Assembly: GCF_037055275.1 (NCBI RefSeq)
Contig: NZ_CP146343.1
Span: forward strand, 3,754,501-3,818,500
From: Pseudomonas sp. ML2-2023-3
GTDB lineage: Bacteria; Pseudomonadota; Gammaproteobacteria; Pseudomonadales; Pseudomonadaceae
Reading direction: 5' to 3'
DNA length: 64,000 nt
This document shows positions 45,905 to 57,913 of the stretch, one piece after another. Position 1 is the first letter of the stretch; the number at the start of each line of letters is the position of its first letter. The notes under the pieces are model-generated. The model was not told where the DNA came from. It searched no databases and worked only from the letters and a program-made list of their open reading frames with translations. The position numbers and the translations under genes were made by a program.

Positions 45905-46873
45905 CTACAGGGCGACGCAATGCCGGCGCTTGAAGGTGCTCGAAGGCAGCTCGCCAAACTGCAAACGGTAGCTTTCGGAAAAACGGCCCAAGTGCATAAA
46001 GCCGTAATCGAGCGCCAGTTCCGTGAGGCTGCGTACCGTGCAGCTCGGGTCGTTCAGGCAGGCGTGGATACGCTCGAGCTTGCGCTGGCGGATGTATTGC
46101 AGGGGGGTAACGCCCAACTGGCGTTCAAACAGGGTGTAGAGCGAGCGCGGACTCATGTGCGCCTGTGCGGCCAGGTCTTCACCGCTCAGGTCCTGCTTCA
46201 GGTTGCGTTCGATGTAGTCGAGGATGCGCTCGATACTGGCACTGGCAGAGGCCAGGTTTTCACGGCTGATGTTGGTCTGCATCAGCGTCAGCAACTTGCT
46301 GCCGATAATCTGCGTGTAGTGCTCCTGCACCCGCAGCAGCGGGTCGCTGGCCTCGGACTCCTGGCATACCATGCCCAGCAAGCCGAGAAAGCCTTCCAGC
46401 TCATCGAGCCTATAGTGATTGCGCATAAAGCGCACACCACCCGCAGGTCGCCGCCAGCGCTGATCGTCACACACCGATTCAAGCAAGCTGGCCGGTATTT
46501 TAAGGATGAATTTTTCGCAATCCTGGGAGTACGTCAGGTCGACCGGGTCGTCGGGATTGATCAGCAACAGCTCGCCCGGCACCAGATGGTGCTCACGGGT
46601 CGGGCCACGCCACAGGCAATTGCCGCTCAACAGGACCTGCAGGTGGAAGATGGTCTCCAGCGCAGGTGACGTCACGCGGACACTGCCGCCGTAACTGATG
46701 CGGCACAGGTCAAGTTCGGCGAATTTTCGGTGATTGAGGCTCGCCAGGGGGCGTGTGGTTCTGGAAAGGCCAATACAGTGCTGACCCACATGCAGGTTCA
46801 CGTAATCGGATACGGCATGGGGGTCCGCGTGTCGGAACACGCTACTGCGTTCACTCAGCAGGCGGCTATCCAT
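45905..46873 (-). CDS. benR: AraC/XylS-family activator of benzoate catabolism
   Basis: A 322-residue regulator, close to XylS (321). Landmarks shared with XylS are HADPHAVSDYVN, LDLCRISYGGSVRV, GNCLWRG, GELLLINPDD and the double helix-turn-helix ending in MSPRSLYTLFERQLG and LALDYGFMHLGRFSESYRLQFGELPS. BenR binds benzoate and activates the benA promoter. ATG 46873 matches the XylS N-terminus; in-frame ATGs at 46897 and 46936 would add 8 or 21 residues and no start has a good ribosome-binding site. It is on the same strand as benA, which begins 2.8 kb downstream beyond the intron. Confidence 0.92.
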   Translation of the reverse strand: MDSRLLSERSSVFRHADPHAVSDYVNLHVGQHCIGLSRTTRPLASLNHRKFAELDLCRISYGGSVRVTSPALETIFHLQVLLSGNCLWRGPTREHHLVPGELLLINPDDPVDLTYSQDCEKFILKIPASLLESVCDDQRWRRPAGGVRFMRNHYRLDELEGFLGLLGMVCQESEASDPLLRVQEHYTQIIGSKLLTLMQTNISRENLASASASIERILDYIERNLKQDLSGEDLAAQAHMSPRSLYTLFERQLGVTPLQYIRQRKLERIHACLNDPSCTVRSLTELALDYGFMHLGRFSESYRLQFGELPSSTFKRRHCVAL

Positions 46874-46967
46874 CGGCAAGGTACTCGGTGTTGTCATTTT
46901 TATGGGTGTCACGTACGCCAGAGTAGGCCCGCTCATGGGTGCAGATCAATTGGACCCTTGGCCAATG

Positions 46968-46982
46968 TTCGATAATCGAACG
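46968..46982. promoter_or_regulatory. Perfect IclR-type (PcaR-like) palindrome
   Basis: GTTCGATAATCGAAC, 7-bp arms around a central A, between the divergent benR and amidohydrolase genes, 81 bases before the latter. It differs by one base from the P. putida PcaR box. Confidence 0.6.
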
Positions 46983-47063
46983 GTTTTAGCCAGCCGGTCG
47001 AACCACTCCGATGGGTGACGACATACCCTGTGCGGCCCAAAAACAACAAACAAGAGAAGCTCA

Positions 47064-48398
47064 ATGCTTGCCCGTCTACGCCCTGCCCCTCTGTACCTCG
47101 CGCTATTGAGCGCACTGACTGCCACCGCCAGCCAGGCCGCGGACCTGAGCTGGGTCGATCCCGCCGTCGATTCGGTCAACGCCCAGGTCATCTCGCTGCG
47201 CCATACCCTTCACCAGAACCCCGAAATGGGCAATCAGGAGTTCAAGACCGCTGCATTGGTCGCCGAACAGCTCAAGAGCCTGGGTTTGCAGGTGCGCACC
47301 CAAGTGGGCAAGACGGGGGTGGTGGCCGTGCTCAAGGGCGGACTCCCCGGCCCGGTGATGGCCCTGCGCGCCGACATGGACGCACTGCCTGTCAAGGAGA
47401 TGACCGGCCTGCCGTACGCCAGCACGGCCACCGGTACCCGCCTGGGCAAAACCGTTCCGGTCATGCACGCCTGCGGCCATGACACCCATACCGCCATGCT
47501 GGTGGGCGCAGCCCGAGTACTGGCCGAACACCGTGATCAGGTCGCGGGCACGGTCGTATTTCTGTTCCAGCCCGCAGAAGAAGGCGCGGCGGACGTGGAC
47601 GAGTTCGAGTCCGATGCCTTGATTGGCGCCCAGGCCATGATCCGCGACGGTGCACTGGACTCGCCCAAGGTCGAAACCATCTTCGGCGTGCACGTGATGG
47701 CGGGTTATCCCACCGGCCACCTGTATTACAAGGCCGGTACCGTACTCAACAGCAGCGACGGCTTTCGCATCATCGTCAAGGGCAAGCAGACCCACGGCTC
47801 GGCGCCCTGGAGCGGAGTTGACCCCGTGGTGGCCAGTGCAGGCATCATCAACGGCCTGCAGACCCTGGTCAGCCGGCGCGCCGACCTGACCCAGGGGATG
47901 GGGGTGATCAGCGTCGGCACCGTCAATGCAGGTTCGGCGGCCAACATCATTCCAGAGACCGTGGAAATGACCGGCACCATCCGCAGCAACAGCGCGGCGG
48001 TGCGCGACACCCTGCTGAAAAAAATGCCGCCGCTGGTGCAAGGCATTGCCAGCGCCTATGAGACCGAAGCCAACCTGTTGCTGGTCAACCATGCGCCGGT
48101 CACCACCAACGACCCGCAACTGACGGCGGCCATGGTCCCGGCGCTTGAACTCGCAGCGCCCGGCAAGGTGCAACGGCTGGAGGCATCCCTGTCGCCCAGC
48201 GAAGACTTCTCGTACTACGCCGAGAAAGTGCCGGGGCTGTTCGTCTTCCTGGGGGCCACGCCTGAAGACCAGGACATGAGCAAAGTGGCGAATAACCACA
48301 GCCCCTACTTCACCGCCGATGACCAAACCCTGGCCACGGGCGTAAAGGCCCATGTGCAGTTTGTGATGAATTATCCGGGGCGGGTGCGCAGCCTCTAG
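47064..48398 (+). CDS. Secreted M20D amidohydrolase (HipO/AbgA-like)
   Basis: A 444-residue metallohydrolase. Residues 1-25 form a signal peptide ending in SQA, so it should act in the periplasm, whereas most hippurate hydrolases are cytoplasmic. Motifs are MALRADMDALPV, MHACGHDTHTAM (Cys and His metal ligands), QPAEEGAADVDE (catalytic Glu) and ANIIPETVEMTGTIRS. The family removes N-acyl groups from amino acids, hippurate or p-aminobenzoyl-glutamate. It is divergent from benR, which suggests that it releases benzoate from N-benzoyl amino acids (inference). An unremarkable AGAGAAG site precedes the ATG. Confidence 0.87.
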   Translation: MLARLRPAPLYLALLSALTATASQAADLSWVDPAVDSVNAQVISLRHTLHQNPEMGNQEFKTAALVAEQLKSLGLQVRTQVGKTGVVAVLKGGLPGPVMALRADMDALPVKEMTGLPYASTATGTRLGKTVPVMHACGHDTHTAMLVGAARVLAEHRDQVAGTVVFLFQPAEEGAADVDEFESDALIGAQAMIRDGALDSPKVETIFGVHVMAGYPTGHLYYKAGTVLNSSDGFRIIVKGKQTHGSAPWSGVDPVVASAGIINGLQTLVSRRADLTQGMGVISVGTVNAGSAANIIPETVEMTGTIRSNSAAVRDTLLKKMPPLVQGIASAYETEANLLLVNHAPVTTNDPQLTAAMVPALELAAPGKVQRLEASLSPSEDFSYYAEKVPGLFVFLGATPEDQDMSKVANNHSPYFTADDQTLATGVKAHVQFVMNYPGRVRSL

Positions 48399-48982: not shown

Positions 48983-49312
48983 ATGAACCTGAATAACCAA
49001 CCGACTGTTAACGAGCTGGCTCGACTCTTCGCCGCCCAGAAAGACACGCTGAACGATCACATTCTGTGGATCAGTGACGCCGGTGATGTTCGTATCGATG
49101 CAGTGACTTCGTGCAAGGAAGAAACCAGTTTCGAGGAGGACCGTCCACAGATGCGAGCCCACCTCAAAATGTACCGCCGTGGCCAAGGCTACGTGGGCAA
49201 GAAGGCTGCCGCCGATAGCGACTACATGGCGCGCATCCTGCAAACCTTGACCCTGACCTGGGAAAAGGCTCAAACAGAGCCTGCACTGGTCAAAGTTAAC
49301 AGCTACAGCTGA
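48983..49312 (+). CDS. Small conserved-type hypothetical protein
   Basis: A 109-residue acidic protein with a good AAGGAG ribosome-binding site seven bases before ATG 48983 and a clean terminator after it, so it is a real gene. No signal peptide or membrane segment. The C-terminal part (ARILQTLTLTWEKAQ) is likely helical. I do not recognise a functional domain. It is convergent with etfA. The start three codons into a longer frame (48965, GTG) lacks a proper site. Confidence 0.7.
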   Translation: MNLNNQPTVNELARLFAAQKDTLNDHILWISDAGDVRIDAVTSCKEETSFEEDRPQMRAHLKMYRRGQGYVGKKAAADSDYMARILQTLTLTWEKAQTEPALVKVNSYS

Positions 49313-49328
49313 TAACCCCTGCTGTACC

Positions 49329-49362
49329 AAAAAGCCCCCGGACAATCTCCGGGGGCTTTTTT
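49329..49362. terminator. Bidirectional rho-independent terminator
   Basis: AGCCCCCGGA (49333-49342) pairs with TCCGGGGGCT (49348-49357) around a 5-base loop. A-run before and T-run after make it work in both directions, for the hypothetical gene and for etfA. Confidence 0.92.
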
Positions 49363-49381: not shown

Positions 49382-50326
49382 TCAGATTGCCTGTTCCAGT
49401 TCAGGCACAGCTTCGAACAAGTCCGCTACCAGGCCGTAATCGGCCACCTGGAAGATCGGTGCTTCTTCGTCCTTGTTGATCGCAACGATCACCTTGGAGT
49501 CTTTCATGCCGGCCAGATGCTGGATAGCGCCGGAAATGCCCACCGCGATGTACAGCTGTGGCGCAACGATTTTGCCGGTCTGGCCGACCTGCATGTCGTT
49601 AGGCACAAAACCTGCGTCCACTGCTGCGCGGGAAGCCCCCACACCGGCGCCGAGTTTGTCCGCCAGCGAATATAGATGCTTGAAGTTGTCGCCGTTCTGC
49701 ATGCCGCGACCGCCCGAAACGACGATTTTGGCTGCGGTCAGCTCAGGACGGTCCGACTTGGCCAGTTCTTCACCCACGAACGACGAAGTCCCTGCATCGT
49801 GAACCGCTGCAATCGCTTCAACCGCTGCCGAACCACCTTCTGCAGCCACCGGGTCGAAACCGGTCGCACGTACGGTGATCACTTTTACCGGCGCAGTGGA
49901 CTGCACGGTAGCAATGGCGTTACCGGCATAGATCGGGCGCGTGAAGGTGTCAGCGCTGATGACCGAAACGATCTCGGAGATCTGATCCACGTCCAACTGC
50001 GCAGCAACGCGCGGCAGGATGTTTTTGCCGTTGGAGGTAGCAGCCGCCAGGATGTGGCTGTAACCGGCCCCCCCACCCACTTGAACAAGAGCAGCGACAA
50101 GAGGCGCCACGTTTTCAGGCAACTGATGGGCGTAAGCCGCGTTGTCGGCGACCAGCACTTTAGCCACGCCAGCGATTTTAGCGGCGGCTTCGGCTACTGC
50201 GCCAATGCCCTGGCCTGCAACCAGAACGTGGATGTCGCCACCGATTTTAGCGGCAGCAGCCACGGTATTCAGCGTGGCCGGGGCCAGTGCTTTGCCGTCG
50301 TGTTCTGCGATTACGAGGATAGTCAT
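49382..50326 (-). CDS. etfA: Electron transfer flavoprotein alpha subunit
   Basis: A 314-residue FAD-binding subunit. The C-terminal FAD domain shows [58 protein letters not shown] and [15 protein letters not shown] accepts electrons from acyl-CoA dehydrogenases and passes them to ETF:quinone oxidoreductase. It starts 16 bases after etfB. No ETF-QO gene is in the window; in other pseudomonads that gene usually lies next to etfBA. Confidence 0.95.
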
Positions 50327-50342
50327 GATTCGGCTCTCCAAT

Positions 50343-51092
50343 TCAAAGCACCTTCGCTTCGTTTTTCAGTTTCTCGACCAGTTCAGCCACCGACTTGACC
50401 TTGATACCCGCGCTGCGAGCAGCCGGTGCTTCAACTTTCAGGGTCTTGTTGGTCGAAGCTGTCGAAACGCCCAACGCATCTGGCGTCAGCACTTCAAGCG
50501 GCTTCTTTTTGGCCTTCATGATGTTTGGCAGGGACGCATAACGCGGCTCGTTCAAACGCAGGTCAGTGGTGATGATCGCCGGCAAGCTCAGCGAAACAGT
50601 TTGCGCACCGCCGTCTACTTCACGGGTCACTGCAACCTTGTCGCCTGCCACTTCAACTTTGGAAGCGAAGGTGCCCTGACCGAAACCGGTCAGCGCGGCC
50701 AGCATCTGGCCAGTCTGGTTGTTGTCGCTGTCGATGGCCTGTTTGCCCAGGATCACCAGCTGAGGCTGTTCCTTGTCGACAACGGCCTTGAGCAGCTTGG
50801 CCACGGCCAGCGAGGTCAGATCTTCGGCGGACTCGACGAGAATGGCGCGATCTGCACCCAGTGCCAGCGCGGTACGCAGCTGTTCCTGAGCAGTGGTCGG
50901 GCCGATGGATACGACGACGATTTCAGTCGCAACACCTTTTTCTTTCAGGCGTACGGCTTCTTCCACAGCGATTTCGCAGAAGGGGTTCATCGACATCTTG
51001 ACGTTGGCGAGGTCAACGCCGGAGTTGTCCGCCTTGACGCGAACTTTAACGTTGTAATCGACCACGCGCTTGATACAGGCCAGCACCTTCAT
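50343..51092 (-). CDS. etfB: Electron transfer flavoprotein beta subunit
   Basis: A 249-residue AMP-binding subunit. [19 protein letters not shown] at the start, and [25 protein letters not shown] and [17 protein letters not shown] (the ETF recognition loop region), are classic. An AGGGAG site precedes ATG 51092. It lies 75 bases after the permease stop on the same strand, downstream of an acyl-CoA dehydrogenase gene, so a functional link to that enzyme is plausible. Confidence 0.95.
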
Positions 51093-51167
51093 AGTTTCTC
51101 CCTCTATGGCTACAGGAACAGTGCCGACAAAAAACAGCACTGCGTACCTGTGTTGATTGGAAAGCCC

Positions 51168-52595
51168 TTAAACCGTTGCGGGTTCGACGGGCAAAATCAG
51201 TTGATCCGGCACCGACTGCCCCGACGTGCGTGCCACGAAGTAATACACCAGCGCTGGCAGCGTCAGGCCGATGATCCACGAGATATCAGTCCCGCCCAGT
51301 TGTTCCACCAGAGGCCCGGTATAGAAGCTGGTAGCAATAAACGGCAATTGAACCACCACCCCAAAGGCGTACACCAGAATACCGCGCAGGTTCCAGCGCC
51401 CGTATCGGCCATTCGGGTTAGACAAGGCAGGCACGTCGTAGCGCTCTTTGCTGATCAGGTAGAAGTCCACCAGGTTGATCGCGCTCCACGGAGTGAAAAA
51501 CGCCAGCAAAAACAGGATAAATGCCGAGAAGTCCTTGAGAAACGAATGCTGCCCCAGTAACGCCAGTGCGGTGGCAAAGCCCACCATCAGCAGGATGTAA
51601 AACAGGCGCAAGGGTTTGGAGATGTCGTGGTTACCGCGAAAGCCGCTGACAATGGTCGCCAACGACATGAAACTGCCGTAGGCATTGAGCGTGGTGATGG
51701 TTACCTTGCCGAACACCACGCAGAAATACAGCAGCGCCGCCATTGCACCGCTCGCGCCCATACCAACGATGTACGACACCTCATGCCCGGCAAACTTGCT
51801 CCCTGCCAGCGCCGCCACGAACACACCGAAGACCATCGAGATTTGCGAGCCGACGACCGAGCCCAACCCTACCGCCAAAAAGGTTTTCAACGAAGAGGTG
51901 TTCGATGGCAAGTAGCGCGAGTAGTCCGCTACATAAGGCCCGAAGGCAATCTGCCAGGAGGCGGACAACGAAATCGCCAGTAAAAAACTGCTCAGCGAAA
52001 AGTGTTTATTACTGAGTAGCAGGCCAATGTCGTTTTGTGAAATCAAGGTGTAGAACAGGTAGAAAAACGCCAACACCCCGACCACGCTCGCCACGCGTCC
52101 GATCATATGAATGGTGCGATACCCCAGAACGGTCAGCAGCACGATCAGCGCCGCAAAAATCAAAATCCCCCACGAATCGCTCACCCCGACCAGTTGCCCG
52201 ACCGCCTGCCCGGCCAGTACCGAACCGCTGGCTGAAAAGCCCACATACATCAGGCACACCAGCACAATCGGGATCACGGCGCCGTAGACACCGAACTGCA
52301 CCCGGCTGGAGATCATCTGTGGCAATCCCAGTTTTGGGCCCTGCGCTGCGTGCAACGCCATGATGGTGCCACCCAGCACTTGGCCGATCAGCAGGCCGAT
52401 CAACGACCAGAACACATCGCCGCCCAGCACCACGGCCAGGGCCCCGGTGACGATCGCGGTCACTTGCAGGTTGGCCCCGAACCACAGGGTGAACTGACTG
52501 AACAGGCGCCCGTGGCGCTCCGACTCAGGGATGTAATCAATAGAGCGTTGTTCGACCAGTGAGGCCCGTTGTGAATCCTGGTTGTGCGTGGACAT
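51168..52595 (-). CDS. NCS1-family permease (cytosine/purine/hydantoin type)
   Basis: A 475-residue nucleobase:cation symporter-1 protein with about 12 helices. FSQFTLWFGANLQVTAIVTGALAV and the block QIAFGPYVADYSRYLPS are NCS1 signatures. The family takes up cytosine, purines, allantoin and 5-substituted hydantoins, all small nitrogen rings; histidine-utilisation loci in Pseudomonas often carry such a permease. ATG 52595 has AAGGA upstream. Its place between an acyl-CoA dehydrogenase gene and etfB, in a run starting with hutC-hutU, makes an imidazole acid such as urocanate or imidazolepropionate a candidate substrate (inference). Confidence 0.86.
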   Translation of the reverse strand: MSTHNQDSQRASLVEQRSIDYIPESERHGRLFSQFTLWFGANLQVTAIVTGALAVVLGGDVFWSLIGLLIGQVLGGTIMALHAAQGPKLGLPQMISSRVQFGVYGAVIPIVLVCLMYVGFSASGSVLAGQAVGQLVGVSDSWGILIFAALIVLLTVLGYRTIHMIGRVASVVGVLAFFYLFYTLISQNDIGLLLSNKHFSLSSFLLAISLSASWQIAFGPYVADYSRYLPSNTSSLKTFLAVGLGSVVGSQISMVFGVFVAALAGSKFAGHEVSYIVGMGASGAMAALLYFCVVFGKVTITTLNAYGSFMSLATIVSGFRGNHDISKPLRLFYILLMVGFATALALLGQHSFLKDFSAFILFLLAFFTPWSAINLVDFYLISKERYDVPALSNPNGRYGRWNLRGILVYAFGVVVQLPFIATSFYTGPLVEQLGGTDISWIIGLTLPALVYYFVARTSGQSVPDQLILPVEPATV

Positions 52596-52693
52596 AAGCA
52601 GTTCCTTCAGGCTGGCACCCAAGGTGCGCCGTGTTGTTTTGGGAAAGACTTTTCCAATCCTTGACCGAACCTCAGTGCATCCATGCAACAACG

Positions 52694-52717
52694 GGCAGGC
52701 TCTATTACGAACCTGCC
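52694..52717. terminator. Small hairpin after the acyl-CoA dehydrogenase gene
   Basis: GGCAGG and CCTGCC around a 12-base loop, 10 bases beyond the dehydrogenase stop. There is no T-run, so it may only attenuate read-through into the permease gene. Confidence 0.35.
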
Positions 52718-52726
52718 GCAAACCGA

Positions 52727-53869
52727 TTATTTGGCTGCGTCGAGCAAGGCGCGGGAGATGATGATTTTCTGCACCTCGGAAGTGCCTTCAAAAATCCGCA
52801 AAATCCGTGCATCACGCACGTAACGCTCCAACGGCAAGTCCCGGCTGTAACCATATCCGCCGTGCAATTGCAGAGCGGCATCGGTGATAAACCCGGCACA
52901 CTCGGCGGCGACCAGTTTGGCGGTGGCCGAGTCCAGGCTGAAGCGCTCGCCGCTGTCACGCCGCGCGGCAGCTTTCATGGTCAACATGCGTGCGCTTTCA
53001 AGCTGTGCGTACATGTCTGCCAGCCGCCATTGGGTACCTTGATAAGCCGCCAGCGGCTTGGGCCCGATCTGACGTTCGCGCACCCAACTCAGGCTGGCTT
53101 GCAGTGCGGCATTGGCAATGCCAAGCGACATGGCCGCCACTTCCACCCGTCCGCGATCCAGCACCGCCATTGCCGTGTTGAAGCCCTGACCCTCAACACC
53201 GAGCAGCGCCGACTCCGGCAGCCAGCAGTCCAGCGACAGCTCATAGATGGTACTGCCACGCAGGCCCATGGTTTTTTCCGGGCTTGAGAAGCTGATACCC
53301 GCCGTTCCACGGGGCACTATAAATGCACTGATGCCTTTATGACCGGCGTCTGGGTCCGTCTTGACATAGAGGACGATGAAATCCGCTTCCTTGGCATTGG
53401 TGATGTAGTGCTTGCTGCCCCGCACACGCCAGCCGCCCTCTTCTCGCACTGCGCGGCTGCGCATGTCGGCCGGATTGGAACCCGCCGCAGGTTCAGTCAG
53501 GGCAAACGCTGCCAGCAACTCGCCGCTGGCCGCCCGTGGCAACCATTCCTGCTTTTGTTCTTCTGTACCGCCAAGCAGGATCGAGTCAGTGGCCAAAAAG
53601 TGCGCGGTCATGGCCGATGCCGTGGATGCACAGGCGCCCGCCACCGCTTCTACCACACGGCTCATGGCAAGACTGCCGATGCCCAGGCCGCCATATTCTT
53701 CTGGCAGGTTAATGCCCATGCAGCCCAAATCCCCCAGGGCCCTGATGCTCGCCAGACAGAAGGTTTCCGTTTCGTCGTAGTGCTGGGCCAGTGGTTGAAT
53801 GACCTCGCGGGCGACTTGTTCGGCACTGTCGATCACTGCCAATTCTTCTGCAGTCATTTCGAAGTTCAT
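52727..53869 (-). CDS. Acyl-CoA dehydrogenase of the hutU-linked cluster
   Basis: A 380-residue enzyme of the short/medium-chain type. LTEPAAGSNPADM and VRGSKHYITNAKEADFIVL line the flavin and substrate site. The catalytic base is Glu361 in IFEGTSEVQ, and LHGGYGYSRDLPLERYVRDARI is intact, so it should be an active alpha,beta-dehydrogenase that reduces ETF. The ATG at 53869 overlaps the CoA-transferase stop (ATGA). Its partners CoA-transferase, ETF and urocanase suggest oxidation of a propionyl-CoA side chain on an imidazole ring; this is inferred from context only. Confidence 0.9.
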   Translation of the reverse strand: MNFEMTAEELAVIDSAEQVAREVIQPLAQHYDETETFCLASIRALGDLGCMGINLPEEYGGLGIGSLAMSRVVEAVAGACASTASAMTAHFLATDSILLGGTEEQKQEWLPRAASGELLAAFALTEPAAGSNPADMRSRAVREEGGWRVRGSKHYITNAKEADFIVLYVKTDPDAGHKGISAFIVPRGTAGISFSSPEKTMGLRGSTIYELSLDCWLPESALLGVEGQGFNTAMAVLDRGRVEVAAMSLGIANAALQASLSWVRERQIGPKPLAAYQGTQWRLADMYAQLESARMLTMKAAARRDSGERFSLDSATAKLVAAECAGFITDAALQLHGGYGYSRDLPLERYVRDARILRIFEGTSEVQKIIISRALLDAAK

Positions 53870-55026
53870 GCGTGTGCTCCTGCTTTGTTCAAGCCAAATG
53901 CGGCGTTGTCTGCGCCCAAACGTGGGGCAATGGTGGACGCGTGGGGTTTGTGGCCGTTGAAGAACACCGGTTGCGGTACCAGCGGCAGCGCTGCGCCCTC
54001 TGGCTGAAACTGCAACTGGCGGACGCGGGCGTGTTCGCTGCCTGCGGCTTCGGCCAGATCCCACACTGGAGAGGACGGCACACCAGCATCGAGCAGGCCA
54101 TCGCACAAGTGCTCAACGCTGTGTTGCGCGGTCCAGGATTCAATGGTGGCGCGTAACGCAGGCTCGTTCAGGGTGCGCTGAGTGTCATTGATAAAACGCG
54201 CATCCGTCGCCAGCTCCGGTTGGCCCATGCACTGGCACAAACGTTCAAACAAGCGATTGCTCGCCACCGCAATTACCACCAGGCCATCCGCTGCACGGTA
54301 TGTGTCGAAAGGCGTCGATACCGGGTGCCGATTACCGACCAGCCCGGGCGCCACACCGTTGGCGTAAAGGTTGGACAAGCCCGTCACTTGCAGGCTGAAC
54401 AACACGTCAAACATGGCCACATCGATGTACTGCGCCCCCGGCGCATGCCGTTCGCGGGCAAACAGTGCCGAGCTGATTGCCCAGGCGGCATAGACGCCAG
54501 CGCACAGATCACCGATGGCCTCACCGCTGCGAGTCGGGCCGGTCGCGGCAAAGCCGGTCACACTCATCAGGCCGGACATGGCCTGCGCCACGATGTCGTA
54601 GGCTGGACGCCTGGACAGCGGGCCTTCCTGGCCAAAGCCGGAAATACTGGCGTAGATCAGGCGCGGGTTGTGCTGCTTGAGGCTATCGAAATCGATGCCC
54701 AGGCGCTGAGTGACACCGGGGCGGAAGTTCTCCACCACTACATCGGCATCGGCTACCAGCTCATAGAAGCGCTGACGGTCCGCAGGGTTTTTAAAATCGA
54801 TTTCAACGCTTCGCTTGCCGCGGTTTATCAAGCCGAAGTAAACACTTTCACCGTCCAGGAACGGCCCCAGATGACGGGCATCATCGCCCTCCTCGGGTAC
54901 TTCAAACTTGATGACATCGGCCCCCAGGTCAGCGAGCATCGCGGTGCAATGCGGTCCGGCCAGTACGCGGCTGATGTCCAGCACACGAACGCCTTGCAGT
55001 TGTTGGGTAAACGGACTGTTGTTCAT
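53866..55026 (-). CDS. Class III (CaiB/BaiF-type) CoA-transferase
   Basis: A 386-residue family III CoA-transferase. RVLDISRVLAGPHCTAMLADLGADVIKFE at the start, NRGKRSVEID, NFRPG and RPAYDIVAQAMSGLMSVTG are typical; Asp173 in GDLCAGVYA aligns with the catalytic Asp that forms the acyl-anhydride. Such enzymes move CoA between two carboxylic acids without ATP. Translationally coupled to the dehydrogenase. 139 bases separate it from hutU, including a REP half-site at about 55130-55150. Confidence 0.9.
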   Translation of the reverse strand: MNNSPFTQQLQGVRVLDISRVLAGPHCTAMLADLGADVIKFEVPEEGDDARHLGPFLDGESVYFGLINRGKRSVEIDFKNPADRQRFYELVADADVVVENFRPGVTQRLGIDFDSLKQHNPRLIYASISGFGQEGPLSRRPAYDIVAQAMSGLMSVTGFAATGPTRSGEAIGDLCAGVYAAWAISSALFARERHAPGAQYIDVAMFDVLFSLQVTGLSNLYANGVAPGLVGNRHPVSTPFDTYRAADGLVVIAVASNRLFERLCQCMGQPELATDARFINDTQRTLNEPALRATIESWTAQHSVEHLCDGLLDAGVPSSPVWDLAEAAGSEHARVRQLQFQPEGAALPLVPQPVFFNGHKPHASTIAPRLGADNAAFGLNKAGAHA

Positions 55027-55165
55027 GCTCACACCCTCTAGATATCCGCAAACAAACCCGTCCTGTGTCGCCGGGCCTGCCTGCAATTGAATCGCCTCGT
55101 ATCGCCTGAAGCACCGAGGCGTCAGCATCGAGCAAGCCCGCTCCCACAGGATTCGTACCCGTGGG

Positions 55166-56842
55166 TCAGCCGTTAATCATCGGCAGGTTCAGGCCCTGCT
55201 CGTTCGCACAGTCGATGGCGATGTCATAACCCGCATCCGCGTGGCGCATCACGCCGGTTGCCGGATCGTTGTGCAGGACACGGGCGATGCGCTCAGCCGC
55301 TTCGTCGGTACCGTCACACACGATCACCATCCCCGAATGCTGCGAGAAGCCCATGCCTACGCCGCCGCCGTGGTGCAACGACACCCAGGTCGCGCCGCTC
55401 GCGGTATTGAGCAAAGCGTTGAGCAATGGCCAGTCGGACACAGCGTCCGAGCCGTCTTTCATTGACTCGGTTTCGCGGTTCGGGCTCGATACCGACCCAG
55501 AGTCCAGGTGGTCGCGGCCGATCACGATCGGGGCTTTCAGCTCGCCACTGCGGACCATTTCGTTGAAGGCCAGGCCCAGCTTGGCGCGTTGACCCAGGCC
55601 TACCCAGCAGATACGGGCCGGCAGACCCTGGAAGCTGATGCGCTCGCGGGCCATGTCCAGCCAGTTGTGCAGGTGCGCGTCGTCGGCAATCAGTTCCTTG
55701 ACCTTGGCGTCGGTTTTGTAGATGTCTTCGGCATCACCCGACAGCGCGACCCAACGGAACGGGCCTACACCACGGCAGAACAATGGGCGGATATAAGCCG
55801 GTACAAAGCCCGGGAAGTCGAAGGCGTTTTCTACGCCTACTTCTTTTGCCATCTGACGAATGTTGTTGCCGTAGTCGAAGGTCGGCACGCCCGCTTTCTG
55901 GAAGGCCAGCATGGCTTCAACGTGCTCGCCCATCGAGGCTTTGGCGGCTTTGACCACGGCTGCCGGATCGGTCACGGCGCGGTCGCGGTACTGCTCCCAG
56001 GTCCAGCCTTTAGGCAGGTAGCCGTTCAGTGGATCGTGGGCGCTGGTCTGGTCAGTGACCATGTCCGGGCGTACACCACGACGAACCATTTCTGGCAGCA
56101 ACTCAGCGGCGTTCCCGCACAGGGCGATGGAAATTGCTTTGCCTTCGGCGGTGTATTTGGCGATACGGGCCAGCGCGTCATCCAGGTCCGCGGCTTGCTC
56201 GTCGACATAGCGAGTGGCCAGGCGGAAATCGATGCGGCTTTGCTGGCATTCGATGTTCAGCGAGCAGGCACCGGCCAGGGTGGCGGCCAGAGGCTGGGCA
56301 CCGCCCATGCCGCCCAAACCGGCCGTCAGCACCCATTTACCGACCAGGCTGCCGTTGTAGTGCTGGCGACCGGCCTCGACGAAGGTTTCGTAGGTGCCCT
56401 GGACGATGCCCTGGCTGCCGATGTAGATCCAGCTGCCGGCGGTCATCTGGCCGTACATGGCCAGGCCTTTGGCGTCGAGTTCGTTGAAGTGCTCCCACGT
56501 GGCCCAGTGCGGCACCAGGTTGGAGTTGGCGATCAGGACCCGTGGCGCGTTGCTGTGGGTTTTGAACACGCCGACCGGCTTGCCCGATTGCACCAGCAGG
56601 GTTTCGTCGTCGTTGAGGTTGGTCAGGCTTTCGACGATTTTGTCGTAGCACTCCCAGTTACGCGCTGCCCGTCCAATACCGCCATACACCACCAGCTCGG
56701 TCGGGTTCTCGGCCACTTGCGGGTCGAGGTTGTTCATCAACATCCGCAGCGGCGCTTCGGTCATCCAGCTTTTAGCAGTGAGCTGGGTGCCACGGGCGGC
56801 GCGGATTTCACCATCACGGTGACGGGTGTGAGCAGTGGTCAT
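55166..56842 (-). CDS. hutU: Urocanate hydratase (urocanase)
   Basis: A 558-residue enzyme, the normal Pseudomonas length, that converts urocanate to 4-imidazolone-5-propionate with tightly bound NAD as an electrophile. The NAD region [24 protein letters not shown] and [24 protein letters not shown] (with the active-site Cys near the end) are intact. ATG 56842 with AAGGA upstream is preferred to an ATG six codons earlier. It lacks the usual hutH/hutI/hutG neighbours. A HutC-type operator lies 69 bases upstream. Confidence 0.96.
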
Positions 56843-57160
56843 GGGGCAGTCCTTCATCAAATGGCATCAACGTCATACGGTGAAGTGCGATAGGTGCGCA
56901 CTTATACCAACCTGTATGTACAAGTGAATGCAAGTGAAGGGCCAACACGCAAACACCCGCGCGCGAAAAGGTGTCTGAATCGATATAAATATTATTTAAA
57001 TCAATTAGTTAAAAAACTTACGTTTTTTAATGAAAGAACATCACGCACGGAAAAGCTGCAAAAAAAGTGCCGCAACTTTGTGCATAAACAGGCGGGAAGG
57101 TAACAAATACGCACCAAAAGTAACGCGAGTAACACATCGTTACCCGCTACGAGGGGCCAC
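56843..57160. other. hutU leader region
   Basis: A 318-base gap between hutC and hutU holding the HutC operator at 56911-56924. Positions 56980-57040 are markedly AT-rich and contain the small hairpin AAAAAAC-TTAC-GTTTTTT (57011-57028), possibly the hutC terminator. No coding potential seen. Confidence 0.6.
56911..56924. promoter_or_regulatory. HutC operator candidate
   Basis: CCTGTATGTACAAG, one base from the perfect palindrome CTTGTA-TG-TACAAG; HutC repressors bind CTTGTAT-type palindromes and release on urocanate. It is 69 bases before the hutU ATG. Confidence 0.7.
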
Positions 57161-57913
57161 TCAGTTGCCGCACTGACCCTGCAGGCGATAGCGCGTTCCC
57201 GGGTACACCAGCCGGGCGCACCCCACCATCCCTTGAGCCGCCCAGGTGCGGCGGCGAATCAGCAGGCACGGCTCGTTTCGCTTGACGTGCAACAGGCGAC
57301 ACTCTGCAGATTTTGCATGGATCGCTTCCACCACATGCTCGCCGCCGGTCAATGGCGCTAGGTTCATCAGGTAGGCATAGGCCGTGGTGCGAGTGAAATC
57401 CTGCTGCAAGTACTCAGGGGCAATCTCGGCATTCACGTAGCGCTCTTCAATTTGCACGGGCACTTCGTTTTCGTAATGCACCATCACCGAGTGAAAGAAC
57501 CGCTTGATGCCGTCCAGGGCGAACGGCATGACAGGCGTGACCTTGGCCGGGACCTCTTCGAGCACGATGACTTCACAGCGATGCACGTGGCCACGGTCAG
57601 CGATTTCCTGGGCAATGTTATGGATTTCGAATAACGCCGCATTGCCTTTGGGCACCGCAACAAACGTCCCCACCCCTTGCATGCGCACCAGCAGCCCTTC
57701 GATTGTCAGTTCACGCAGTGCGCGGTTGATCGTCATGCGACTCACGCCCAACAGGGCAAGCAACTCACTCTCGGAGGGCAGCTTGGAGTTGGGCAGCCAG
57801 GCACCTGAACGAATTTTTTGCGCAATGGCCTGCTTTACGCGCGCGTACAGCGGCGCAGGACTCTCGATGGAAAATGACTCAAGGGATGAATTGTCATCGA
57901 CTGACTTAGACAC
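57161..57913 (-). CDS. hutC: GntR-family histidine-utilisation repressor
   Basis: A 250-residue HutC-subfamily regulator. The winged helix covers roughly residues 20-90 (PLYARVKQAIAQKIRSGAW, LPSESELLALLGVSRMTINRALREL, RMQGVGTFVA) and a UTRA effector domain follows (ERYVNAEIAPEYL, RRRTWAAQGMV). I choose the GTG at 57913 because AGGAG lies just upstream and the length then fits HutC; a longer frame upstream is not homologous. It represses hut genes and responds to urocanate. Confidence 0.92.
   Translation of the reverse strand: MSKSVDDNSSLESFSIESPAPLYARVKQAIAQKIRSGAWLPNSKLPSESELLALLGVSRMTINRALRELTIEGLLVRMQGVGTFVAVPKGNAALFEIHNIAQEIADRGHVHRCEVIVLEEVPAKVTPVMPFALDGIKRFFHSVMVHYENEVPVQIEERYVNAEIAPEYLQQDFTRTTAYAYLMNLAPLTGGEHVVEAIHAKSAECRLLHVKRNEPCLLIRRRTWAAQGMVGCARLVYPGTRYRLQGQCGN

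Follow-up and report, generated by a model that had tools for sequence, protein, structure and literature searches.

Why a bacterium with a complete histidine utilization (hut) operon should keep a second urocanase gene and a second hut repressor gene next to a CoA-transferase and an acyl-CoA dehydrogenase (ACAD) is the question raised by a locus of Pseudomonas sp. ML2-2023-3 (contig NZ_CP146343.1). The whole stretch analysed, 64,000 nucleotides in length (positions 3,754,501 to 3,818,500, forward strand), is called the window here; the cluster in it, called the module, comprises hutC2, hutU2, a gene for a class III (CaiB/BaiF) CoA-transferase (CaiB in the gene orders below), an ACAD gene, an NCS1 permease gene, and etfB and etfA for an electron-transfer flavoprotein (ETF). 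Its most probable role, to which we assign a probability of about 0.85, is the oxidation of imidazolepropionate (dihydrourocanate) to urocanate as a HutC-controlled side entry to histidine catabolism. This reading is preferred because the transferase-dehydrogenase pair stands under a HutC/sigma-54 type promoter and beside or inside hut operons in several lineages, and because it is accompanied by a near-identical second urocanase, an NCS1 paralogue, and ETF with ETF-quinone oxidoreductase (ETF-QO) where the genome has no other. No substrate logic other than conversion of imidazolepropionate to urocanate was found to explain all these features together, and they support it.

Linkage of the transferase-dehydrogenase pair to hut genes

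All seven genes described in a sequence-only reading of the window were found, in one direction on the minus strand, and the overlap of transferase and ACAD genes that it had pointed out proved to be 4 bp; hutH, hutI, hutG and hutD are absent from the cluster, as it had said, and present in the hut operon elsewhere in the host genome (5.4 Mb; psychrophila/fragi group of Pseudomonas). That operon is complete and canonical (hutG, hutI, ProY-like permease, hutH, hutU, hutD, hutC, hutF) and lies near C1:0.37 Mb, with the window at 3.8 Mb; the cluster is therefore separate from the hut operon proper and forms a side module.

For comparison across genomes, 79 transferase loci out of 211 relatives were examined, and 48 of them (L005-L051 and L059) were taken as orthologous (at least ~63% identity in the best tblastn segment); many of the 48 are close relatives and not independent. 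ACAD was present in 48/48 and hut genes in 46/48, and the contigs of the other two (L020, L031) begin <150 bp upstream of CaiB. The orthologous loci span Pseudomonas, Providencia, Citrobacter, Pragia, Wohlfahrtiimonas and Ignatzschineria, and the window transferase and its P. psychrophila DSM 17535 counterpart (L005) are 100% identical. The pair lies within the order hutU-CaiB-ACAD-NCS1-hutI-hutG in P. schmalbachii (L026) and P. panipatensis (L027). On plasmids of Paracoccus alcaliphilus and P. aminophilus the order is hutI-hutH-hutG-CaiB-ACAD-hutU with CaiB overlapping its neighbours, and the Paracoccus transferases form a separate clade in a CaiB tree (38 rows, chosen from the loci then in hand); in Oceanobacillus polygoni (L052) it is hutU-hutI-arginase family-CaiB-ACAD-symporter-ORF-hutH-aminotransferase-hydroxyacid dehydrogenase.

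In a genus sample, 5 of 199 Pseudomonas genomes held a transferase orthologue (85-100% identity; next best 44%), with hut genes adjacent at 5/5 orthologue loci versus 0/25 paralogue loci over the same ~1.5-kb flanks, the 25 (L089-L113) being the best-scoring paralogue loci, not all paralogues. In an even sample of the phylum, a close transferase (E <= 1e-95) was present in 9 of 398 Pseudomonadota genomes, host genome included, with ACAD beside it in 9/9 and hut genes within ~8 kb in 7/9. The sequence-only reading had named a pair lying beside hutU only in this strain as one of the observations that would refute it; the hut-linked pair was found in many genomes, and the reading was not refuted on this point. 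Chance adjacency was rejected on the 46/48 hut-linked loci, the genus and phylum samples and the operator counts given below. In 22 module genomes, hand-picked from the loci then in hand, hutH, hutI and hutU were all found above curated cut-offs (22/22). No clear further hut context emerged at L053, L055, L056 or L057, apart from a hutU next to the Bosea locus (L056) and, at L057, a gene resembling hutC. In Providencia stuartii NCTC11800 (L059 9001-10153) the transferase and hutU matches fall into several pieces, from a decayed gene or sequencing errors.

HutC operator and promoter

The dyad TGTANNTACA occurs once in the 64 kb, directly before hutU2 and 70 bp ahead of its ATG; the count expected from shuffles is 0.08, and at least one site arose in 8 of 100 shuffles. 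A GG-N10-GC element of sigma-54 type stands exactly 7 bp before the operator in 16/16 operator-bearing Pseudomonas loci, and the same arrangement of element, 7 bp and operator was found at canonical hutU of the host and other Pseudomonas. HutC binds TGTA-N2-TACA, and the P. aeruginosa HutC footprint overlaps the hutU sigma-54 site, according to PMC12977541. The window and its 48 orthologues give 49 loci, of which 15 are without upstream DNA and 34 were testable for the operator. It was found within 350 bp of the first gene at 29/34, a limit set after the Providencia sites had been seen at ~300-320 bp; the remaining 660 kb of the same loci hold three other sites, two of them within the hut operons of L026 and L027. 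At loci without hutU, the operator precedes the transferase in 6/7 testable cases (L007, L010, L019, L022, L034, L036; not L048). Judged by operator placement, the module would be a member of the HutC regulon.

The two-gene core

PF02515 spans the whole transferase and places it among the class III CoA-transferases, and the Asp of its PAYD stretch, presumably the catalytic Asp, aligns with YfdE. Its nearest solved or modelled relatives are YfdE-type, oxalate, succinate-glutarate and succinyl-CoA:mesaconate transferases, and the CaiB equivalog (L-carnitine CoA-transferase) fits poorly (113 bits, cut-off 413). The dehydrogenase, with three ACAD domains and the catalytic Glu, is an acyl-CoA dehydrogenase: Glu361, to which the sequence-only reading had drawn attention, is intact in the FEGTSEVQ stretch of a protein of 380 residues from the ATG start; the aligned stretch in 5ol2, the acyl-CoA dehydrogenase that is the best solved match, reads YEGTSEVQ. 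The acryloyl-CoA reductase AcrC equivalog stays below its cut-off with the dehydrogenase (379.2 versus 640 bits), and the CaiA model far below (170 versus 540). No close hut or housekeeping counterpart of transferase or dehydrogenase was seen in the genome, where the next transferase is 41% identical to that of the module and dehydrogenase paralogues were not searched.

Three minimal loci (L010, L019, L022), which of the genes probed hold hutC2, CaiB and ACAD only, with no hutU and no permease, indicate that this pair is the functional core; several further strains are without a second hutU at the module. The core is the transferase-dehydrogenase pair under a HutC operator, with hutU, permease and ETF as optional parts, and around these two genes the module has collected extra copies of the host's own hut and ETF genes. 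The conversion of imidazolepropionate to urocanate proposed in the sequence-only reading gains support from the hut linkage, operator, duplicated hutU, permease and ETF/ETF-QO, and the emphasis that it had laid on hutU, permease and ETF has to be reduced.

Spare copies of hut and ETF genes

HutU2 is a urocanate hydratase by its TIGR01228 score (Table 1; cut-off 375) and matches the solved urocanases 2v7g/1uwl over nearly its full length; a role as ergothioneine or thiourocanate hydratase was rejected, the NCBIfam thio models scoring below cut-off (693.8 versus 930 and 709 versus 880 bits). In the host genome, hutU2 and canonical hutU are 99.6% identical in protein and 95.1% in DNA, alignable from about codon 5 to the stop over 1663 bp with no gap. 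(Reference hut proteins were cut from open reading frames, some with a few residues preceding the likely start.) At fourfold sites, the two copies of one genome differ at 10/293 in P. arcuscaelestis, 16/293 in P. moorei, 22/287 in P. boanensis and 43/288 in P. umsongensis, and 29 of 30 between-species comparisons of copies of the same type differ at 58-106 of ~285; the remaining one (module copies of PS723 and ok272) differs at 38/284. In the host genome the copies differ at 52/295 sites, versus 89/299 for the canonical copies of host and P. fragi. These counts suggest repeated gene conversion or re-duplication of hutU in several lineages, and copies kept alike by such events should share their substrate, urocanate. 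Concerted evolution of the two hutU copies (window 55166-56842 and L003 14618-16315) is apparent in several Pseudomonas, and several draft contigs stop within hutU, as expected of a repeat that breaks assemblies. HutC2 passes the TIGR02018 cut-off (220 bits) and is 59% identical to canonical HutC of the host genome, with the stretch SRMTINRALRE identical; urocanate is its presumed effector.

The NCS1 permease has 73-77% identity to the products of NCS1 genes that stand directly after canonical hutU in four other Pseudomonas genomes (L126, L129/L171, L131/L169, L148), and a fifth, G205 (L133/L170), holds only an internally deleted NCS1 remnant between hutU and hutH. In the canonical hut operon of the host, no NCS1 gene stands among the hut genes. 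P. aeruginosa transports urocanate with HutTu (PA5099), whose gene number falls between those of hutH (PA5098) and hutU (PA5100) (PMC12977541, PMC12772324); from position, the NCS1 gene might be guessed to be the HutTu counterpart.

Identity to the pair adjoining the one ETF-QO of the genome is 94.6% for module EtfA and 97.6% for module EtfB, and three EtfA-type genes were found in the genome; module etfBA (49382-51092) is a duplicate of that etfBA pair, with 92% DNA identity. Among the Pseudomonas modules examined etfB/etfA are uncommon, being seen besides the window at L005-L009, L017 and L036. No ETF-QO lies in the window and one lies elsewhere in the host genome; the ETF and ETF-QO that a respiratory (oxidative) ACAD requires are thus both available. 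An ETF-QO gene (PF05187 and PF21162) comes next after etfA in Pragia, Citrobacter, Providencia, Wohlfahrtiimonas and Ignatzschineria, and in 7/7 such gammaproteobacterial genomes the single PF05187 match agrees in position with the module; the E. coli control gave no ETF-QO match (PF05187). A sole ETF-QO placed at the module in seven genomes argues for oxidation.

Proposed pathway and alternatives

In the proposed pathway, the NCS1 permease would import imidazolepropionate, perhaps also urocanate, the class III transferase would load CoA onto imidazolepropionate, and the dehydrogenase would form the alpha,beta double bond to give urocanoyl-CoA, its two electrons passing through ETF and ETF-QO to the quinone pool. 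The transferase would then swap urocanoyl-CoA with the next imidazolepropionate (or another acid) and free urocanate, which HutU, whether module or canonical copy, would convert to imidazolonepropionate, with HutI, HutF and HutG leading on to glutamate. Urocanate would lift HutC repression from the sigma-54 promoter, and by doing so the product would induce the module. Substrate, CoA donor, exchange step, HutC2 effector and permease cargo are inferred here. Exchange would be the simplest route to free urocanate without ligase or thioesterase, neither of which was recognised among the module genes examined.

Several results weigh against this assignment. Transferase and dehydrogenase lie below every NCBIfam cut-off, and the cluster has no CoA ligase to explain priming. 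The operator limit was fixed with some of the sites in view, and the operator is missing at 5/34 testable loci (L028, L043, L048, L049, L059); the sigma-54 element is absent at 13/13 operator-bearing loci outside Pseudomonas. Copies of hutU are not markedly closer within P. fluorescens PS723 (52/278 fourfold sites) and P. sp. ok272 (90/276), and in Citrobacter, Providencia and Ignatzschineria divergence has brought their protein identity down to 75-86%. No hut gene lies within ~8 kb at L162 and L166, two of the nine loci in the phylum sample. The transferase matched only the centre genome both in an Enterobacterales sample (295 genomes, E <= 1e-120) and in a class sample (369 genomes, E <= 1e-95; G000), so that the module is rare and patchy. 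Finally, hut linkage alone cannot single out imidazolepropionate over a substituted imidazole acid.

That last point leads to the same chemistry acting mainly on a modified 3-(imidazolyl)propionate, for instance an N-methylated or 2-thio acid. Relatives of the pair in Gemmobacter and Mesorhizobium have as neighbours a ring-hydroxylating dioxygenase, an aminotransferase (in Mesorhizobium hisC-like) and a flavin adenine dinucleotide (FAD) oxidoreductase and may therefore serve a wider catabolism of imidazole acids. The module urocanase, however, barely differs from the canonical enzyme and scores below the thiourocanate models' cut-offs, strains lacking a second hutU must rely on the canonical copy, and the module genes of the loci examined included no recognisable demethylase or desulfurase; a modified acid is therefore improbable as the main substrate. 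Less probable still is a module running backwards in the manner of CaiA or acryloyl-CoA reductase, in which urocanate would be activated and its reduction to imidazolepropionate would serve as an electron sink. Among NCBIfam models, dehydrogenase and ETF are indeed best matched by subunits of acryloyl-CoA reductase, all with scores far below cut-off (379 versus 640, 153 versus 600 and 116 versus 475 bits), but a reductive role was rejected on the finding of ETF-QO at the module in genomes with no second copy; against it stand also a urocanase sharing the operon in most loci and the complete hut pathways of the hosts searched.

Two further proposals are compatible with oxidation of imidazolepropionate to urocanate and alter its mechanism or its benefit. 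An external donor such as succinyl-CoA or acetyl-CoA might supply CoA at each turn, urocanoyl-CoA being released through thioesterase action or exchange with the acid of that donor, with no hand-over of CoA to the next imidazolepropionate. The YfdE-type, oxalate, succinate-glutarate and succinyl-CoA:mesaconate relatives of the transferase favour such a donor; given the lack of a recognised thioesterase or ligase, and since class III transferases natively exchange CoA between two acids, it is the less likely arrangement, though a serious one. Alternatively, the chemistry may be as proposed and the benefit clearance instead of nutrition, imidazolepropionate from neighbours or side reactions being removed so that histidine and urocanate catabolism can run. 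Imidazolepropionate inhibits urocanase, an extra hutU would also relieve that inhibition, and under a HutC-type operator the module is probably expressed whenever the hut pathway is; the presence of permease, ETF and ETF-QO at many loci speaks instead for uptake and energy-yielding use, and clearance as the purpose is considered rather unlikely.

Relation to known systems

The CaiTABCDE/FixABCX carnitine system of E. coli is reductive and anaerobic and works with FixCX. Both there and in the module, a class III CoA-transferase, an ACAD-fold enzyme, a transporter and ETF would handle one small acid by CoA exchange; the module differs in its ETF-QO in several hosts, its product feeding HutU and its HutC operator. 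In Clostridium sporogenes, FldA/AcdA/EtfAB reduce phenyl and indolyl acids after a dehydratase, and CoA-transferase, ACAD and ETF likewise interconvert a 3-arylacrylate and a 3-arylpropionate, whereas the ring predicted for the module is imidazole and the predicted direction oxidative. Compared with the hut pathway, the HutU, HutC, operator, sigma-54 promoter and permease of the module are paralogues of hut parts, to which it would add a CoA-dependent entry upstream of urocanate that bypasses HutH. Urocanate reductase, UrdA, which works without CoA, concerns the same redox couple, urocanate/imidazolepropionate, and acts in the opposite direction. A loop of transferase, ACAD and ETF is thus of a known kind; the predicted substrate, the HutC operator and the place in histidine catabolism are new.

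UrdA is described as flavin-dependent (PMC10882135, PMC13320830), and imidazolepropionate production by it is known at the gene level (PMC13320830). Imidazolepropionate has been described as a gut microbial metabolite with ties to insulin resistance, type 2 diabetes and heart failure. If the proposed pathway holds, this metabolite would be returned to urocanate and burned via ordinary histidine breakdown, and the pair would both mark an imidazolepropionate sink genetically and supply its two enzymes, also in Citrobacter and Providencia genomes. No publication on genes for bacterial imidazolepropionate oxidation was found among the matches listed; most subscription journals lie outside the search, and prior publication is possible. 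Coote and Hassall are said to have reported bacterial growth on imidazolylpropionate in 1973, reportedly with Comamonas testosteroni, and the module, if correctly read, would give such old reports a testable genetic basis. No Comamonas is among the 79 loci (of 211 relatives), and no Comamonas-directed search was made.

Related clusters in other bacteria

Plasmid clusters of Neorhizobium, Agrobacterium and Rhizobium combine a related transferase with an ammonia-lyase and HutC-type/UTRA regulators, together with 3-hydroxyacyl-CoA dehydrogenase and enoyl-CoA hydratase. The ammonia-lyase is HutH-like in the two clusters scanned, L116 and L120 (504 bits, hutH cut-off 539); no acyl-CoA dehydrogenase is annotated near the rhizobial transferase, which is sister to the gammaproteobacterial clade with weak support (88/73). 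These clusters possibly carry out a CoA-dependent beta-oxidation of urocanate by way of urocanoyl-CoA, a layout that agrees with a transferase family acting on imidazole C3 acids. In Oceanobacillus polygoni (L052 3400-17224) the aminotransferase is of hisC type (above the TIGR01141 cut-off) and is accompanied by a D-2-hydroxyacid dehydrogenase, and the two could serve imidazolepyruvate and imidazolelactate. Plasmids of Mesorhizobium (L117 3713-16333) and Gemmobacter (L115 3085-10341) hold CaiB-ACAD with the dioxygenase, aminotransferase and FAD oxidoreductase mentioned above, the oxidoreductase of Mesorhizobium being GlcD-like and HutC present there. Taken together, the clusters may tentatively be seen as an unrecognised, HutC-type-controlled, CoA-dependent arm of histidine-type catabolism, although the odds are somewhat against it: to the imidazolepropionate branch would be added a rhizobial one, in which urocanate from a HutH-like lyase is activated with CoA and beta-oxidised, and in Oceanobacillus and Mesorhizobium a hisC-type aminotransferase with a hydroxyacid dehydrogenase or oxidase would bring in imidazolelactate and imidazolepyruvate.

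Feature coordinates and flanking genes

Table 1. Features of the module in the window, and of loci elsewhere where a locus number is given.
Feature	Position	Strand	Basis or remark
etfA	49382-50326	minus	PF01012 + PF00766
etfB	50343-51092	minus	PF01012
NCS1 permease	51168-52595	minus	PF02133
ACAD, proposed imidazolepropionyl-CoA dehydrogenase	52727-53869	minus	ACAD N-terminal, middle and C-terminal Pfam domains
Class III (CaiB/BaiF) CoA-transferase, proposed imidazolepropionate CoA-transferase	53866-55026	minus	PF02515, 380.5 bits
hutU2, urocanate hydratase	55166-56842	minus	TIGR01228, 1016.8 bits
HutC operator TGTA-N2-TACA (predicted)	56913-56922	minus	one occurrence in 64 kb
Sigma-54 type promoter element GG-N10-GC (predicted)	56930-56943	minus	7 bp before HutC operator
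hutC2, GntR/UTRA repressor, HutC paralogue	57161-57913	minus	TIGR02018, 285.7 bits
NCS1 remnant, G205	L170 2396-2688 = L133 3283-3575		internally deleted
Rhizobial clusters	L116 6399-10864; L118 6422-10887; L120 1895-11616		

The module is flanked in the window by genes for an AraC-type regulator and a divergent M20 amidohydrolase (45905-48398), as it is in the close relatives L005 and L006. A plus-strand open reading frame of 109 residues (48983-49312) ends just before the module and is followed, near 49332-49361, by a terminator-like GC-rich hairpin with a T run, read by eye.

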